A stretch of 64,000 bases of DNA, taken from NCBI GenBank assembly GCA_029251375.1, contig JAQXDL010000047.1:1-64000 (forward strand), in the 5' to 3' direction. Shown here piece by piece: positions 43,277 through 50,844 of this stretch; within the stretch, counting starts at the first letter, position 1; each line of letters opens with the position of its first letter. Below the pieces are notes generated by a model that was not told the DNA's origin, ran no database searches, and was given only the letters and a program-made list of their open reading frames with translations. The stretch is from Pseudomonadales bacterium (GTDB lineage Bacteria; Pseudomonadota; Gammaproteobacteria; Pseudomonadales; Azotimanducaceae). The position numbers and the translations under genes were made by a program.

Positions 43277-44716
43277 ATGATGAAACGATTCTTAAAGCGA
43301 AGAGACATAATTAAAACAGGCGCGATGTTACCTTTAGCGCCGGCTCTACTCAGCGCTTGTGACGGTTCAGCAGGCACAACCAACGCATTCTACGATGACG
43401 GCGTCTATCTTTCCGGTAACTTCAAACCGGTCGATGTTGAATCAACTCTTACTGAACTTGAAGTAATAGGCACAATCCCGCAGGAGCTCACAGGAAGGTT
43501 CTTAAGAAATGGCCCTAACCCGCTCGGCAAAACCGATACAGATTCATACCATTGGTTTACCGGAGACGGCATGGTGCATGGTTTGCGTCTCGATAATGGT
43601 AAAGCTGATTGGTATCGTAATCGCTGGGTTCGCAGCGAATCAGTGATCGAAGCACTGAACGAGTCTGTTGACGGCAGAGACCTAGGCTTTGGACCCAACA
43701 CCAACGTGATTGGTCATGGCGGCAGAACTTGGGCGATTGTCGAATCAGGCTCGCGTCCGATCGAGCTCAGCTACACGCTAGATACCGTTGGTCAAAACCC
43801 CGGCTGGGGTGGCTATACCGCACACCCCAAAATCGATCCTGATACCGGCGAACTACATGCCATTAGCTACGATTGGGGTAACTACCGTGACCATGTGAAA
43901 TACACCGTCATGGATGTTAATGCCAACCTCATCAAAACAGTCGATATTCCGTTACCCGGCATGCCCATGCTGCATGACATGAGTTTAACCAAGAATTACA
44001 TTGTGCTATTCGATCTCCCTGTAACTGTTAGCTTTCTGGCGCTCGGCACCGGTGCGAGCTTCCCGTTTCGTTGGAATGACGAACATGAAGCGCGGGTTGG
44101 TGTTATGCCACGCAATGGCACAGGCAAAGACATAGTTTGGAGCAGCATCAGCCAAAACTATGCCTACCACCCGATGAACGCTTATGAAGATGAAAACGGT
44201 CAGATTGTTATCGACATTTGTCGATACGAAAAGATGTTCGCCGCCGACACTAACGGACCTTTCGGTGACGCCCTACCCCGACTCGACCGTTGGACGATTA
44301 ATCCCAAGGGTGGCAAAGTCTCTGAACAAATCATTGATGAACGCGCTCAAGAGTTTCCTCGTTGCCATCCAGACCTGAACAGTAAACCTTATCAATACGG
44401 CTATGTTTTGGCCGTCGGTAATCAGTCGTTCCCCAGTATCTATAAACAAGATGTAAAATCAGGAACCAGTACGGAGTTTAATTTTGGACCGGGCCGACAT
44501 GGTGCGGAACCAAACTTTATTCCTAAACAATCTGCTCAGTCTGAGGATGATGGCTACCTGATGACGTTTGTTTATGATGAGCAGCGTAAAGCCAGTGAAC
44601 TGATTATTCTTGACGCACTTGATCTATCTCGTCCAGCGCTTGCACAAATAAAACTGCCCGTGCGTGTGCCCTATGGTTTTCACGGCAATTGGGTACCTGA
44701 CACGGATGTCTCGTAG
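43277..44716 (+). CDS. Carotenoid oxygenase family protein (RPE65/CCD-like)
   Basis: A 479-residue protein. The four iron-binding His residues of the seven-bladed propeller are visible: H183 (YTAHPK), H233 (MLHDMS), H298 (AYHPMN) and H469 (GFHGNW). It should cleave carotenoids, apocarotenoids or stilbene-like substrates with O2. The N-terminus KRFLKRRDIIKTG resembles a twin-arginine signal and leads to a lipobox-like LLSAC with C28, so it may be an exported lipoprotein, which is unusual for the family. GAGGG precedes the double ATG. Confidence 0.9.
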   Translation: MMKRFLKRRDIIKTGAMLPLAPALLSACDGSAGTTNAFYDDGVYLSGNFKPVDVESTLTELEVIGTIPQELTGRFLRNGPNPLGKTDTDSYHWFTGDGMVHGLRLDNGKADWYRNRWVRSESVIEALNESVDGRDLGFGPNTNVIGHGGRTWAIVESGSRPIELSYTLDTVGQNPGWGGYTAHPKIDPDTGELHAISYDWGNYRDHVKYTVMDVNANLIKTVDIPLPGMPMLHDMSLTKNYIVLFDLPVTVSFLALGTGASFPFRWNDEHEARVGVMPRNGTGKDIVWSSISQNYAYHPMNAYEDENGQIVIDICRYEKMFAADTNGPFGDALPRLDRWTINPKGGKVSEQIIDERAQEFPRCHPDLNSKPYQYGYVLAVGNQSFPSIYKQDVKSGTSTEFNFGPGRHGAEPNFIPKQSAQSEDDGYLMTFVYDEQRKASELIILDALDLSRPALAQIKLPVRVPYGFHGNWVPDTDVS

Positions 44717-44978: not shown

Positions 44979-45929
44979 TTAGTAAATTGAAACCATATAG
45001 CCGACATAGCCAATCAGGAAAATGACCCCTGCCGGTTTACCGATCCTAGCTTTCGCAAGCACAAACAACCAAAGCACAATCGCAGCCGCAAACATCACCC
45101 AAAGATCGAAACTAATGAAACGCGCTTCAACCGGGATGTCCGTCATCATCGCTGTGATGCCAAGAATGGCCAAGATATTAAACAAATTACTGCCGATAAC
45201 ATTGCCAATGGCAACATCTGAATTCTTGTGCAGCGCAGCGATGACGGTCGTACTGAGTTCCGGCAGAGACGTGCCGAGCGCAATGAGACTCAAGCCGATA
45301 ACCGCTTCCGAAACACCCCAACTTGATGCGAGACCAGCGGCACCTTCAACCGCTAAGTCGGCGCCCATCGGCAGCGCAATCATGCCAAGTACAATGAATA
45401 AGGTGATCGTCGGTTTATAGCTAGGCAACCCGAGCACCCGTTCAAGCTCTTCCTCGACATCATCAAGACCAGGCATCACGGCAACACCTCGTGTCGTCGC
45501 AATTAAAAAACAGATGAGGATAGTCACTAACAAGGCACCCTCCCAAAACGTAATCGGCTCTTGCACACAGAGAAAAATAAATAATAGAGAAACGGCGACC
45601 ATTAGACCGGTCTGTTTCGACAGACCTTCTTGATCACAAACAATGGGATGTATGAGCACTGGCACACCCAATACAAGCAAAACGTTGGCGATGTTACTGC
45701 CAATGACATTGCCTATCGCAATATTCGGGTAGCCCGACAAGGCTGAAAAGGTCGACACCATTAATTCAGGCGCCGACGTACCCATTGCAACAACTGTCAG
45801 CCCGACAACGACGGGTGGAATCTTACTTTCCCGCGCCAGTCCAAGTGCACCTCTGACAAGCAAATCACCGCCCATCAATAGATAAACGAAGCCGCCAAAT
45901 AATTTTAGGAAATCAACGGCTTCAGACAT
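44979..45929 (-). CDS. Calcium/sodium antiporter (CaCA superfamily, YrbG-like)
   Basis: A 316-residue inner-membrane protein with about 10 helices and the two inverted alpha repeats: VAMGTSAPELMVS with IGNVIGSNIANVLL, and IALGTSLPELSTT with IGNVIGSNLFNILA. It exchanges Ca2+ or a similar cation for Na+, K+ or H+. Its start overlaps the Cache-HAMP gene by 8 bp, so the two are probably translated together. Confidence 0.93.
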   Translation of the reverse strand: MSEAVDFLKLFGGFVYLLMGGDLLVRGALGLARESKIPPVVVGLTVVAMGTSAPELMVSTFSALSGYPNIAIGNVIGSNIANVLLVLGVPVLIHPIVCDQEGLSKQTGLMVAVSLLFIFLCVQEPITFWEGALLVTILICFLIATTRGVAVMPGLDDVEEELERVLGLPSYKPTITLFIVLGMIALPMGADLAVEGAAGLASSWGVSEAVIGLSLIALGTSLPELSTTVIAALHKNSDVAIGNVIGSNLFNILAILGITAMMTDIPVEARFISFDLWVMFAAAIVLWLFVLAKARIGKPAGVIFLIGYVGYMVSIY

Positions 45930-47127
45930 TGGTGTTCTTAGTTGTTGTGTCTAATTCGTCCGAACTTTTCGGCCCTGTGTGAGCCTCCTGTGTATCCGAT
46001 TCATCATAAGCAACATGATCAAGCAGTTCATTCAACGATTCCGCTAGGTAGGCAATCTCATCGTCACCTTCAAATTCAGCACGAAGATCGGTTTCGCCTT
46101 TACGAACACGCTCAACGAGTACAGCAAGTTCATGTATCGGACGGGCAAGGTAGAAACCGAGCAAAGTACCACCGATGATAGCGAATGCTGATAACGCAAT
46201 GCCGATGTCGAACATGGCTTCAAGTAAGGTATCGGCTCGTAACTCTTCCTCTGTCGTATCAACCTTTACGACCAAACCCCATTCAACGTCTGGCAAGTAG
46301 CGAGTCGCCGCCCAAACTTGTTGACCACGATAGTCTTCATAACTATCGATATGGATACCGGACTCACCGTCGAGTACCCTCTGCACGACTGCCGATGTAC
46401 TGCTAATCGGCACAACTCGCGGCATTATCTCTAGATGATGCCGACGGGGATTCAACAAAATTGCACTCTCTTGATCTTGCCGACTTATCACCATGATTTC
46501 ACCGGTCTCACCAAGCCCTGTGTGGTCAGATGTCGCGGTCTGCAGATCGGATGTATTGAATGCGACTTCCATGAAACCAAGCACGTTTTCATCAACGGGG
46601 TTATCCGACACCAAGCCGGAGGGTTTAGCTGGAATATGACGGTCCCGCGTGATCTTGGTCGTCATAACAATTCTGATATGGCCATCATCGTCGTGGAATG
46701 CGCCGCCGTAGCCAACGTCGTCTGAAACGATAGGCATACCGGGTTTACCGTAATCGTAGCTCTCGCCCCAACTCATGATATTGCCACGATTGTCGTAAAT
46801 TTTTACCTTCGCAACATTTTTGACGGCACCCGCTGTGTGCTCGATGATATGACGCACAGCTTCTTGTGTGGCAGGTTCAGCCAGGTCATTGACTGATAGA
46901 GTTTCCTTTAGATCGGTTGAGCTACGAATGAGGCGAACTTGGTCCTTCCAACCTTCTTGAACCTTGCTGAGGTCTTGAGCTTTGCTTTCTGCTAAAGAGT
47001 CTAATTGACGGATCGAAATTTCCTTCAACAATTCTGATGAAGTTTGATACGCAAAAGCGCCGAGCAGAAGCATGCTCAAAAGGGATACAAATACGAGAGT
47101 TAACGCAAGTTTAGTCCGAATGTCCAA
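45922..47127 (-). CDS. Cache-HAMP membrane sensor protein without an output domain
   Basis: A 401-residue protein with an N-terminal membrane helix (about 6-28) and a periplasmic double-Cache-like domain (about 40-310), with features such as VKIYDNRGNIMSWGESYDYG and AATRYLPDVEWGLVVKVDT. A second helix (about 318-340) and a HAMP domain (about 341-393) follow. The protein then ends in a short acidic, Thr-rich tail. No kinase, GGDEF or methyl-accepting domain follows. The start is TTG. The 8-bp overlap with the antiporter gene suggests that it may act on that transporter. Confidence 0.85.
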   Translation of the reverse strand: MDIRTKLALTLVFVSLLSMLLLGAFAYQTSSELLKEISIRQLDSLAESKAQDLSKVQEGWKDQVRLIRSSTDLKETLSVNDLAEPATQEAVRHIIEHTAGAVKNVAKVKIYDNRGNIMSWGESYDYGKPGMPIVSDDVGYGGAFHDDDGHIRIVMTTKITRDRHIPAKPSGLVSDNPVDENVLGFMEVAFNTSDLQTATSDHTGLGETGEIMVISRQDQESAILLNPRRHHLEIMPRVVPISSTSAVVQRVLDGESGIHIDSYEDYRGQQVWAATRYLPDVEWGLVVKVDTTEEELRADTLLEAMFDIGIALSAFAIIGGTLLGFYLARPIHELAVLVERVRKGETDLRAEFEGDDEIAYLAESLNELLDHVAYDESDTQEAHTGPKSSDELDTTTKNTNV

Positions 47128-47375: not shown

Positions 47376-48629
47376 TTGCGCCCAATCTACTATGGCTACT
47401 GGTTGATTCTCGCCGCATTTGTTGCCCAGTTTATTTCAACAGGTGTGCAAAACTACGTCATCGGTCCGTTTATGATTCCTATGACTGAAGAGCTTGGTTG
47501 GACGCGCGCAGAATTCACGTTACCCAGAACACTGGGTCAGGTTGTCATGGCATTGACTGGTTTCCTGATCGGTAGCCACGTGGATAAACAAGGTGCCAAA
47601 GGTTTTATGCTGATCGGCACGGCGGTTTTAGCCGTCGCACTCTACGGTACATCAATGATTACCAACTTGTGGCACTGGGTATTTTTGAACGGCATCGTCT
47701 TAACGATTGGCGCGGCACTGGTAGGCAACCTCATTGTGAATGTCACCTTGGCAAAGTGGTTCGTTGATTTCCGGGGTCGAGCCGTCGCCTTCGCCGCCAT
47801 GGGTGTATCTTTCGCTGGCGTGCTACTCACGCCATTAACGACCTGGGCCATAGACACATTTGATTGGCGCGCAGCATGGCAATTGTTATCGATCATTACC
47901 GTCATCTGCATTATTCCCGCTGCACTGGCGATGCGTCGTACACCAGAAGATCACGGCTTACATCCGGACGGAAAAACAAGCGAAGAAGTTAATGCAGGCT
48001 TCGCGCAAAGGGCCGCGTTGGATTTCGAGAACTCACTAACTCGCAGCCAGGCGTTACGCACCGGCACCTTCTACTATCTGGTTTTTGCCTTCGCCCTGTT
48101 TTTGATCACAATCCAAGTCATGTTGATTCAAACCGTACCCTTTATGACTGATGCCGGTTATAGCAGAAGCACGGCAGCGCTGATGATTACCGCCGCGTCT
48201 GTGCCTGCGCTATTAGCGAAACCCATCTGGGGTTGGTTAATCGATGGTTTACAGCCCAACCGTCTGGCCGCTACCAGTGCAGCTATCACAGGCTTATCCC
48301 TTTTCATCATCGTATTTGCAGCAAGAGCAGAATCCCTGAATGGTACGATCGCCGGCTTCGTCATCCTAGGCTTGGGCTGGGGCGGCATGATTCCTTTAAC
48401 GGAAGTTATATGGGCGTCGTATTTTGGCAGAAGGTACATCGGTGCGGTCAGAAGCGCGGCTCTGCCCTTCACCATTTTTCTCACTGCGGGTGCTCCCTTG
48501 GCAACCTCGTATTACTTTGACGTTACTGGCAGTTATGACGGTGCAATTCTTGCGGTGGGTTTCTCAAACCTGGTCAGTGCCTTTCTGATTCTCTTTATCA
48601 AGAAACCGGTCGTCCCGAGTTCGTCCTGA
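47376..48629 (+). CDS. MFS transporter (monocarboxylate/OFA-like)
   Basis: A 417-residue protein with about 12 helices. The N-terminus YYGYWLILAAFVAQFISTG and GPFMIPMTEELGWTRAEFTL are typical of the MFS group that includes oxalate/formate antiporters and monocarboxylate carriers. The central loop TPEDHGLHPDG is also common there. The start is TTG with GGAAA upstream. It diverges from the Cache-HAMP gene and converges with feoB. The substrate is unknown. Confidence 0.87.
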   Translation: MRPIYYGYWLILAAFVAQFISTGVQNYVIGPFMIPMTEELGWTRAEFTLPRTLGQVVMALTGFLIGSHVDKQGAKGFMLIGTAVLAVALYGTSMITNLWHWVFLNGIVLTIGAALVGNLIVNVTLAKWFVDFRGRAVAFAAMGVSFAGVLLTPLTTWAIDTFDWRAAWQLLSIITVICIIPAALAMRRTPEDHGLHPDGKTSEEVNAGFAQRAALDFENSLTRSQALRTGTFYYLVFAFALFLITIQVMLIQTVPFMTDAGYSRSTAALMITAASVPALLAKPIWGWLIDGLQPNRLAATSAAITGLSLFIIVFAARAESLNGTIAGFVILGLGWGGMIPLTEVIWASYFGRRYIGAVRSAALPFTIFLTAGAPLATSYYFDVTGSYDGAILAVGFSNLVSAFLILFIKKPVVPSSS

Positions 48630-48684: not shown

Positions 48685-50844
48685 CTAGCTCACCTGAATC
48701 GCGGGTATCAGATTAGCTGATCGGCGCCCGATACGCTTCAGATTGTGAATAAAAAACCACATCACCAGTACTGAACCCAACAACCAAGAGACGGAAAATG
48801 TCGGATGCTCGGAGAAGGTTCCCAGCTGATAAATGTTACTTGCAGCCACATAGGCGACCGTAGTCGTCCAACTAAAAATAAGTACCATCCAGCGCCAGCC
48901 TGCTTCTTTGGTAATCGCGCCCAAAACGGCAACACAGGGGGCGTAAAGTAGTATGAACACAAGGTATGAAAAAGCTGCGAGTTGACTACCGAACAGCGAC
49001 GCCATATTCGTCAGGGTTGAAGACTGAACACCCTGTTCCTGCGCCGCAATCGATACATTGTCAATATTGGCAATACCTAAGCCCAAGGGGTCTGCAAGAC
49101 CGCTAAGTAAACCGGCGCCATTATCGACAATTGACATCACTGCCGCTTGCGCTGATTGAACAAGATTAGGTGTGCTGTCGTCCTTATCCGCAGCTGTGTA
49201 GAGCGCATCCAAAGTGCCGACGACAGCTTCCTTCGCGAAGATACCGGTAAATAAACCGACCGTCGCAGGCCAGTTATCTTCTTGAACGCCGATAGGTGCA
49301 AAAATCGGCGTAATTGTCTTACCGATTGTAGACAAAGCGGACGCTTCAGAATCTTCATTACCGAATGACCCGTCTGTACTAATTGAATTTAGGAAACTCA
49401 ACGCAATCACAACCAAGACAATAGTCTTGCCCGCTCTAAAAACAAAACTCTTAAGCCTGAACCACGTCGTGATCAATATATTTCGAAGTACAGGAATGTG
49501 ATAGGCAGGCATCTCTTGAAACGAAGGCGTAATTTCATGACCAAAAATCTGACGCCTGAATATGAAGCCCGTCATCACAGCCAGCAGGATGCCTAACAAA
49601 TAAAGTCCAAATACAACATTCTGACCGTTGGATTGAAAAAACGCGGCAGCAAACAAGGCGTACACCGTCAGTCTCGCGCCACAGGACATAAACGGCGCCA
49701 TAGCAATTGTCATTAATCGATCACTGTCACGGCCAAGCGTCCGAGACGCCATGACAGCCGGCACGTTACAACCAAAACCGACGATTAACGGCACAAATGC
49801 CGAGCCCGGTAAACCCAACTTACTCATTAGGCTGTCCACTACAAAAGCCGCTCGCGACATATAACCCGAATCTTCTAGTACGGACAAACACAGAAACAGC
49901 AGACCAATAACGGGGATAAAGGTCGCGACCAATTGAATACCGCCACCTAAACCATCGGCAAGTAACACGATCATCCATTGCGGAAAGGATGCTGATTCAA
50001 GCAACCAACGAAAGCCATCAACAAATACAGCAGCAAACAGGATGTCAAAAAAGTCGATAAAAACAGCGCCAACATTTACCGCAACGGTAAACATCAGATA
50101 CATCATGAATAGAAAGAAAGGGATGCCCAACCATTTATTTAGCACCCAACGATCTATTCGCTCGGTTAACGAGTCAAACACAGGCGAGACCTCAACGGCA
50201 CCATTCACCAATTGGGTTGAACGATGATAACGCCTGATAAGTTTCTCAGGCGCCGACAGTTGCTCCGTGTCTTCAGCTGATGCGTTGTTAATGGCAGTCG
50301 CATCGCTAGAACCTGCAACATGGGTATCTGAATCACTGCTCAGATCGGCTAAATAGGTTTCAAGTTTTTGACTTAACGCCTCAACACCTTCCGAGCGGGA
50401 GGCAACGATCGGGTATACATCGATACCGAGGTTCTGCTGAAGTAAATCGACATCAATTTTGACACCCTGTTGTTCCGCAACATCTAGCATATTCAACGCA
50501 ATAACGATGGGCACGTTCTCTTCGACCAGTTGTTGCGTTAACACGAGGTTGCGTTCTAGATTCGTCGCATCAAGAATATTTATGACAAGATCGACGTCTC
50601 CAGCCCTTAGAAAGTCGAGCGCAATCTTTTCATCTAAGCCTAAGTATTCTTGCTCTAGAGAATAAATACCGGGCAAATCCACTAACTGTATTTGCTGCCC
50701 ACCAAGCGTAAAGGTACCCACTTTTTGCTCTACCGTTACACCCGGCCAGTTACCCACTTTCTGATGTGAACCGGTGAGTCTATTGAAGAGTGTTGTTTTG
50801 CCGGCGTTGGGGTTGCCGATCAGCGCGATGGTGACGAGGCTCAT
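48685..50844 (-). CDS. feoB: Ferrous iron transport protein B
   Basis: A 719-residue inner-membrane Fe(II) transporter with an N-terminal G domain: G1 GNPNAGKTT (residues 9-17), switch GNWPGVTVEQKVG, G3 DLPG and G4 NMLD. The membrane part has the two Gate regions (VPLIVGFGCNVPAVMASRTL and the later CVAVLGAITKEAGW). It is slightly shorter than E. coli FeoB (773). It overlaps feoA by 4 bp, so the two are coupled. No feoC follows. Confidence 0.96.
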   Translation of the reverse strand: MSLVTIALIGNPNAGKTTLFNRLTGSHQKVGNWPGVTVEQKVGTFTLGGQQIQLVDLPGIYSLEQEYLGLDEKIALDFLRAGDVDLVINILDATNLERNLVLTQQLVEENVPIVIALNMLDVAEQQGVKIDVDLLQQNLGIDVYPIVASRSEGVEALSQKLETYLADLSSDSDTHVAGSSDATAINNASAEDTEQLSAPEKLIRRYHRSTQLVNGAVEVSPVFDSLTERIDRWVLNKWLGIPFFLFMMYLMFTVAVNVGAVFIDFFDILFAAVFVDGFRWLLESASFPQWMIVLLADGLGGGIQLVATFIPVIGLLFLCLSVLEDSGYMSRAAFVVDSLMSKLGLPGSAFVPLIVGFGCNVPAVMASRTLGRDSDRLMTIAMAPFMSCGARLTVYALFAAAFFQSNGQNVVFGLYLLGILLAVMTGFIFRRQIFGHEITPSFQEMPAYHIPVLRNILITTWFRLKSFVFRAGKTIVLVVIALSFLNSISTDGSFGNEDSEASALSTIGKTITPIFAPIGVQEDNWPATVGLFTGIFAKEAVVGTLDALYTAADKDDSTPNLVQSAQAAVMSIVDNGAGLLSGLADPLGLGIANIDNVSIAAQEQGVQSSTLTNMASLFGSQLAAFSYLVFILLYAPCVAVLGAITKEAGWRWMVLIFSWTTTVAYVAASNIYQLGTFSEHPTFSVSWLLGSVLVMWFFIHNLKRIGRRSANLIPAIQVS

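Follow-up and report, generated by a model that had tools for sequence, protein, structure and literature searches.

The sensor and antiporter genes

We analysed a stretch of 64,000 nucleotides (the window) from a Pseudomonadales bacterium of the family Azotimanducaceae (assembly GCA_029251375.1, contig JAQXDL010000047.1, positions 1-64,000). At 44979-47127, a gene for a membrane sensor without output domain precedes a gene for a putative cation antiporter of the CaCA family (Table 1). An earlier note on this DNA had described an 8-bp overlap of the two genes, and the ORF coordinates confirmed it. The same spacing of -8 bp was present in 26 of the 33 other pairs from the family (27/34 with the window's pair included), and all 34 lay within -8 to +8 bp. 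A gene for an RPE65-type carotenoid oxygenase (43277-44716) is convergent with the antiporter gene. At the other end, an MFS transporter gene (47376-48629) is divergent and also adjoins the pair in several relatives, and a FeoB gene (48685-50844) is located nearby. A scan for promoters and terminators gave counts not above those in shuffles.

Table 1. Positions within the window of the two genes and of the parts of their products
Feature	Positions	Strand	Details and basis
Output-less dCache-HAMP sensor gene	45922..47127	-	401 aa, TTG start; ORF, Pfam, AlphaFold2 model, PDB fold match
Cytoplasmic N-terminus and TM1, residues 1-30	47038..47127	-	sequence and model
Predicted periplasmic dCache domain, residues 31-290	46258..47037	-	model, PDB fold match; absent in two species
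TM2, residues 291-328	46144..46257	-	model, conservation
HAMP, residues 326-371	46015..46152	-	Pfam PF00672
C-terminal tail, residues 373-401, and stop	45922..46011	-	not conserved
Overlap of sensor stop and antiporter start	45922..45929	-	8 bp; ORF coordinates
Putative CaCA (TIGR00367/YrbG-type) antiporter gene	44979..45929	-	316 aa; ORF, Pfam, TIGR00367, fold match
Antiporter TM1 positions 12-23 (G12, Y16, L18, L23)	45861..45896	-	conserved with sensor, changed in sensor-less relatives
TM5-TM6 cytoplasmic linker, residues 147-171, with helix 156-166	45417..45491	-	model and conservation
G167-L168-P169 motif just before TM6	45423..45431	-	CaCA comparison

HAMP was the sole cytoplasmic domain of the sensor according to ORF and Pfam (E 1.2e-7; 32.3 bits against a cut-off of 25), and the frame stops 30 residues past this match. 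No kinase, cyclase, GGDEF, EAL, PP2C or MCP domain was found in the sensor by Pfam at E 1 or better, in agreement with the earlier claim that it has no kinase, cyclase or chemotaxis output. Pfam Cache models remained below their cut-offs (dCache_1, E 1.9e-4, 21.5 against 45 bits; Cache_3-Cache_2, E 1.2e-3, 18.7 against 27.7 bits). When the AlphaFold2 model (mean pLDDT 78.6, alignment of 20 relatives) was compared with the PDB, two integrative chemoreceptor models ranked at the top, followed by the dCache ligand-binding domains of Mlp37, mmHK1, Tlp3 and PscC (E 2e-7 to 1.2e-6). Despite the sub-cut-off Pfam scores, a dCache fold of the periplasmic part is well supported by the predicted structure. 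The alignments used, A1 and A3, comprised 20 and 28 of the available sequences, respectively.

Mean pairwise identity over 38 sensors was highest in the N-terminus with TM1 (70%), followed by TM2 (60%) and HAMP (55%); it varied between 30 and 61% among segments of the dCache domain, the distal Cache standing at 30%, and dropped to 11% in the tail. The tail had been described as short and acidic. This holds for the 29 residues found in the window, but the acidity is not conserved, since the tails of the 38 sensors are 7-29 residues long with net charges from -6 to +15. Poor conservation rules out the acidic tail as an effector. One sensor (L041:3161-4432, genome G027) carries a repetitive insertion of VMKTT/VMKAR-like units in its Cache domain.

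The dN/dS ratio of the sensor was 0.03-0.14 in nine of ten species pairs, the tenth being saturated, and that of the antiporter was 0.02-0.10. Judged by these ratios, the sensor is under purifying selection and is not a relic, and its being a pseudogene is ruled out. For the Cache region taken separately, values of 0.06-0.16 were obtained in the seven full-length pairs with a finite ratio, two more being saturated.

The antiporter matched PF01699 (E 1.2e-61) and exceeded the curated cut-off of TIGR00367 (219.4 against 179.65 bits). Its best match in both sequence and fold was NCX_Mj. Residues E55, N82 and E224 match E54, N81 and E213 of NCX_Mj, while N251 stands at the position of D240, and an excerpt of PMC4746289 describes the D240N change as making NCX_Mj faster. 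At the six ion-site positions checked, residues were identical in all 81 CaCAs compared, 29 control genes (see below) included. By family, the protein is a putative CaCA cation exchanger, and exchange of Ca2+ for Na+ or H+ is a prediction from this membership. In its structural model (pLDDT 87.1), TM5 and TM6 are joined by a linker with a short helix and GLP just before TM6.

Recurrence of the sensor-antiporter pair

The earlier note had proposed a genome-neighbourhood search for output-less Cache-HAMP proteins beside CaCA genes. The pair does recur, in 43 genomes including distant lineages: 34 are from the window's family and nine are others, seven of the latter in one distant order. Intergenic distances ranged from -20 to +46 bp over these pairs.

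Sensor relatives at E 1e-12 or better were detected in 37 of the 206 genomes of the family. In 34 of them, the window's included, an output-less sensor directly precedes a CaCA gene; the remaining three are G158, cut by a contig end, and G106 and G172, which carry the relay forms described below. CaCA genes at E 1e-85 or better were present in 44 of the 206 genomes, and 35 of these share 61% identity or more with the window's antiporter. Thirty-four adjoin the sensor, and the CaCA gene of the last (G183) is truncated by the start of its contig, so that every testable close orthologue in the family (34) has the sensor. The other nine family CaCAs, 50-56% identical, comprise those of G106 and G172 and seven from a single genus without the sensor. 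In these seven genomes, CaCA comes immediately after FeoB without an intervening sensor, and a sensor relative at E 1e-12 was not found in any of them. At E 1e-75, a search of 293 genomes from the order gave three CaCA matches, all from the window's family.

When 84,980 species genomes were scanned for sensor relatives, 76 loci were obtained, namely 37 output-less sensors beside CaCA, one locus cut by its contig (L166) and 38 without CaCA in the stretch read. The latter consisted of 36 more distant relatives in longer frames (455-1441 aa), one output-less protein (L174) and one locus without a hit (L205). No CaCA was found near the 36 in the stretches read, several of which end at a contig end; these relatives were classed by frame length, some frames being open at the contig end. 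In the window's order, nine relatives with an output domain, one of them from the same genus, likewise showed no CaCA within the 13-17 kb read around them. Seven of the 37 linked loci lie outside the family's 206 genomes: two in Gammaproteobacteria MAGs (L147 and L156) and five in MAGs titled delta-proteobacteria (two also Myxococcota) or Proteobacteria, which belong to one order. Two further pairs (G730 and G751) came from that order, of which 79 genomes were searched. Loci cut by contig ends (L094/L166 of G158, and L098) were excluded from the counts; the CaCA of L073, which is counted, is itself cut.

Neighbourhoods of paired and control genes

For comparison we used 29 control CaCA genes of the window's class, the best-scoring of the matches that 91 of 143 genomes contained. 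Their neighbours were taken as mechanical ORFs, longest first, within 1.5 kb, and include some shadow frames in GC-rich loci. A HAMP profile built from the sensor family and its relatives, which matched two kinases used as positive control, gave no match among the 111 neighbour ORFs. Pfam families among the 68 of these ORFs scanned included SIS/CBS (9/68) and HAD-like (5/68), as far as the 25 of 73 families listed are concerned. A chance neighbourhood of sensor and antiporter is ruled out by the 43 genomes, by these 29 control loci and by the clades common to the sensor and CaCA trees.

Beside 42 of the 43 output-less pairs, 116 of 140 ORFs were scanned, FeoB-length ORFs and a few long frames being left out. 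The commonest families were amino-acid permease (16), SDR (10) and MFS (8), EAL occurred in 2/116, and no kinase or receiver family was found in at least three of the 116 ORFs among the 25 of 75 families listed. A single ORF contained HAMP, in a HAMP-GAF-GGDEF-EAL protein convergent with the pair (L163:6048-8891). Within the window, Pfam scans of the sensor and six other genes revealed neither a receiver nor the core of a histidine kinase.

Apart from the window, 33 family regions contain the pair, and FeoB was present in 24 of them; of the nine without it, three start no more than 0.6 kb from the sensor or inside it. FeoB also directly preceded the sensor-less CaCA in all seven cases (L206, L207, L209-L213). 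Within the family, the neighbourhood itself is therefore conserved, as would be expected if two membrane proteins of the same physiology, such as divalent-cation or envelope stress, were made together and never touched each other. Against this, the pair persists in the seven linked loci outside the family's 206 genomes, where FeoB gave no match, the 8-bp overlap is kept in the large majority of family pairs, and a signature in the antiporter linker tracks the sensor (see below). We consider such a purely operonic association very improbable.

Relay forms and split receptors

In three relatives of the sensor, from G106, G172 and G722, HAMP is followed by REC-REC(-Hpt), with the gene of a CHASE8 kinase nearby. 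In G106 (L096:4246-12337), the gene order is YfiR-like, CHASE8-HAMP-kinase-REC-REC, Cache-HAMP-REC-REC-Hpt (771 aa), REC-SpoIIE-STAS and CaCA. This cluster adjoins a TonB-dependent receptor gene and looks like a phosphorelay/partner-switch set ending in the antiporter. In G172, the genes at the end of one contig encode the CHASE8 kinase and a 799-aa Cache-HAMP-REC-REC-Hpt protein, after which a receiver-like frame begins. A second contig starts with the end of a PP2C-like frame followed by CaCA; from inspection by eye, we infer that the two contigs belong together. G722 possesses an output-less pair and, elsewhere, a Cache-HAMP-REC-REC gene convergent with a second CaCA (L259:5833-13288). Beyond the latter lie a TonB-receptor-like frame, a YfiR-like gene and a CHASE8 kinase, a gene set like that of G106 in another order.

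In a tree of 42 sensors, the CaCA-linked full-length sensors formed one clade against four output-bearing relatives (100/99), and they did so in a separate tree against ten such relatives. The three relay forms constituted one clade (100/99) nested inside the CaCA-linked sensors. In the CaCA trees, linked, relay and sensor-less rows together made up one clade (100/100). The trees left out 12 of 54 sensor rows and 24 of 84 CaCA rows (near-identical sequences, long outgroup rows, many controls and one own paralogue). A single clade of output-less sensors, and with it a single loss of the output domain, was rejected when three relay rows were included (p-AU 0.023) but not with two (0.229). According to these tests, the output was gained a single time or else lost on two or more occasions; what is constant through either history is Cache-HAMP plus this CaCA.

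A lost output domain visible in homologues of the sensor had been named beforehand as a finding that would refute its link to the antiporter. This is borne out in part: three members of the clade do carry REC-REC(-Hpt), yet the same antiporter lies alongside them (in G172 by the inferred joining of contigs). Being nested among the linked sensors and beside the same antiporter, the relay forms extend the sensor-antiporter link rather than remove it. They also show that a phosphorelay can receive input from the Cache-HAMP module or provide input to it. One might further ask whether the output-less sensor is a degenerate remnant of a phosphorelay sensor, seeing that relay-form homologues exist and that some tails outside the family (..ANRELERRV..) resemble what we take to be the start of a lost output linker. 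The low dN/dS of the sensor and its occurrence with the antiporter in 43 genomes largely refute this, and we regard it as scarcely credible.

The sensor might instead act in trans on a kinase or another HAMP protein, through a heterodimer or stacked HAMP domains, the antiporter being a co-sensor or co-regulated, as in transporter-linked sensor kinases. The relay relatives with their nearby CHASE8 kinases fit this picture, and so does L174 (the same gene as L267), a distant output-less dCache-HAMP protein without CaCA, 28% identical over part of its length. Its gene precedes one for a soluble hybrid kinase with poly-HAMP, GAF, HisKA, HATPase and triple REC (L174:5314-11824). This arrangement shows that a HAMP receptor and its likely effector can be separate proteins, and that something other than a transporter can be the effector. 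Action in trans is nevertheless improbable for the output-less pairs, beside which, FeoB-length ORFs left out, no kinase or receiver family recurred (see above). Furthermore, the window's genome contains no sensor paralogue at E 1e-3, and its two other HAMP matches at this threshold (one under the cut-off) are both complete kinases with an adjacent response regulator. A paralogous kinase in this genome was on these grounds rejected as the partner of the sensor.

Sensors without a Cache domain

Two species (G017 and G163) have lost the Cache domain, but a protein of 138 or 144 residues with the architecture TM-TM-HAMP (TM helices assigned by sequence) stays at -8 bp from CaCA. The dN and dS of its TM2-HAMP part were 0.15 and 1.49, respectively, and both CaCAs beside these mini sensors retain the linker motif. 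The two mini sensors were absent from every sensor tree. The loss of Cache means that sensing is dispensable in these species, and the part kept is the one that could touch a membrane partner.

The mini form, still paired with the antiporter, could also be explained if the sensor were an assembly or stability factor, a structural subunit that passes no signal, with an inherited Cache domain that is slowly being lost. The far better conservation of TM1, TM2 and HAMP relative to the distal Cache would agree with this. On the other hand, the Cache region is kept in 41 of the 43 paired sensors and evolves under the constraint described above in all seven pairs with a finite ratio. We therefore think a purely structural role rather unlikely.

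A signature in the antiporter

Linked antiporters share a motif in the TM5-TM6 linker. The pattern [GR][LMI]P was present in 43/43 linked and 3/3 relay CaCAs, in 0/7 sensor-less ones, in 1/29 controls and in 0/2 own paralogues; for the stricter G[LMI]P, the counts were 42/43 (R replacing G in the 43rd), 3/3, 0/7, 0/29 and 0/2. More generally, 117 positions were conserved to at least 90% in 41 linked CaCAs, and 15 of them were changed in the nested sensor-less group: 5/6 in the TM5-TM6 linker, 4/14 in residues 1-35 and 6/97 elsewhere. The linker differed from the rest (5/6 against 10/111; Fisher p 1e-4), for a region picked after seeing the data; enrichment in TM1 alone, likewise a region picked afterwards, was not significant (p 0.08). 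The sensor-less CaCAs form one clade on a long stem (0.73-0.76), so that loss of the motif counts as one event, which could have another cause.

According to excerpts of PMC8366772 and PMC4746289, TM1 and TM6 of NCX_Mj act as a sliding gate; TM5 and TM6 are joined by a 12-residue loop in this protein, and the loop at the same place in eukaryotic NCX is the regulatory f-loop. With TM1 and TM6 as the moving gate, the positions that track the sensor cluster on or beside the gate and not at the ion site. These sequence changes suggest that the sensor is the regulatory partner of the antiporter and does not signal elsewhere.

A model of sensor action

We propose that the sensor is probably a dedicated regulatory subunit of the adjacent antiporter, setting its rate via the TM helices, HAMP and the linker. 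The antiporter had already been named in the earlier note as the likeliest partner, and both the pairing in 43 genomes and the antiporter features that track the sensor speak for it; against the strict form of that proposal, in which a periplasmic ligand provides the signal, stand the two species with a deleted Cache domain. According to the model, the overlapping genes would allow coupled synthesis of the two proteins. The sensor, presumably dimeric like HAMP proteins, would place its TM helices and its HAMP bundle in contact with the TM1 face and the TM5-TM6 linker of the antiporter, the linker contact being formed by helix 156-166 plus GLP, running into TM6. A periplasmic ligand or condition acting at dCache would then shift TM2 and HAMP and thereby alter the exchange rate, the signal passing from sensor to antiporter. 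Since TM1 and TM6 form the sliding gate of CaCA proteins, such a shift would be expected to alter exchange.

In the minority of species where HAMP is extended by REC-REC(-Hpt) and a CHASE8 kinase lies alongside, a phosphorelay might act on the same module. It is possible, and put forward tentatively, that the Cache-HAMP membrane module in all its forms is the regulatory subunit of one CaCA clade, with REC-REC-Hpt of the relay forms as an extra cytoplasmic input. The phosphorelay (YfiR-like protein and CHASE8 kinase) would in that case gate ion exchange directly, after translation, via HAMP and the linker.

Comparison with known systems

In the transporter-linked sensor kinases DcuS-DctA and BceS-BceAB, a membrane sensor cooperates with a transporter whose gene is close by. 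These sensors possess a kinase and are informed by the transporter, whereas the window's sensor is without output, which leaves the transporter as its likely target. The split receptor L174 likewise combines an output-less dCache-HAMP protein with a presumed effector in the next gene, but that effector would be a kinase, and L174 itself is only distantly related to our sensor. Sensor-less YrbG/TIGR00367 antiporters belong to the same family and have the same six ion-site residues as the window's antiporter; the control members differ in lacking the linker G[LMI]P and in having neighbours that include SIS/CBS and HAD-like proteins.

Eukaryotic NCX is also a CaCA exchanger with the TM5-TM6 cytoplasmic loop as regulatory site (excerpt of PMC4746289). 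Its regulation, as described there, proceeds through Ca2+-binding domains inside the loop; the linker of the window's antiporter has about 25 residues, and a receptor encoded separately is the putative regulator. Af1503 of Archaeoglobus fulgidus, the prototype HAMP structure, resembles the sensor in being a membrane protein that ends in HAMP with no output, and an excerpt of PMC3585426 presents it as a non-signalling TM protein without input and output domains. The sensor profile A1 found its HAMP chains 3zrw and 2y21 (E 0.006-0.04), with only HAMP aligned, both being HAMP-only constructs. In contrast to our sensor, that excerpt describes neither a periplasmic dCache domain nor an antiporter partner for Af1503.

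The literature searched, mainly at the level of titles and abstract openings, contained no HAMP protein regulating a CaCA antiporter. Both proteins belong to known families; the literature searched made no mention of their pairing, of the minimal form or of the linker signature. Cache and HAMP are among the commonest bacterial signalling modules, and their outputs are taken to be kinases, cyclases, phosphatases and chemotaxis proteins. If regulation by the sensor is direct, it would represent a new kind of receptor output, and a secondary transporter in this role would extend what a receptor can do. The pair would be a prokaryotic counterpart of the loop-regulated NCX, with regulator and exchanger encoded by separate genes and easy to assay, and the linker motif offers a direct prediction for point changes. 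Such regulation would also explain some of the annotated "HAMP-domain proteins" that have no output.
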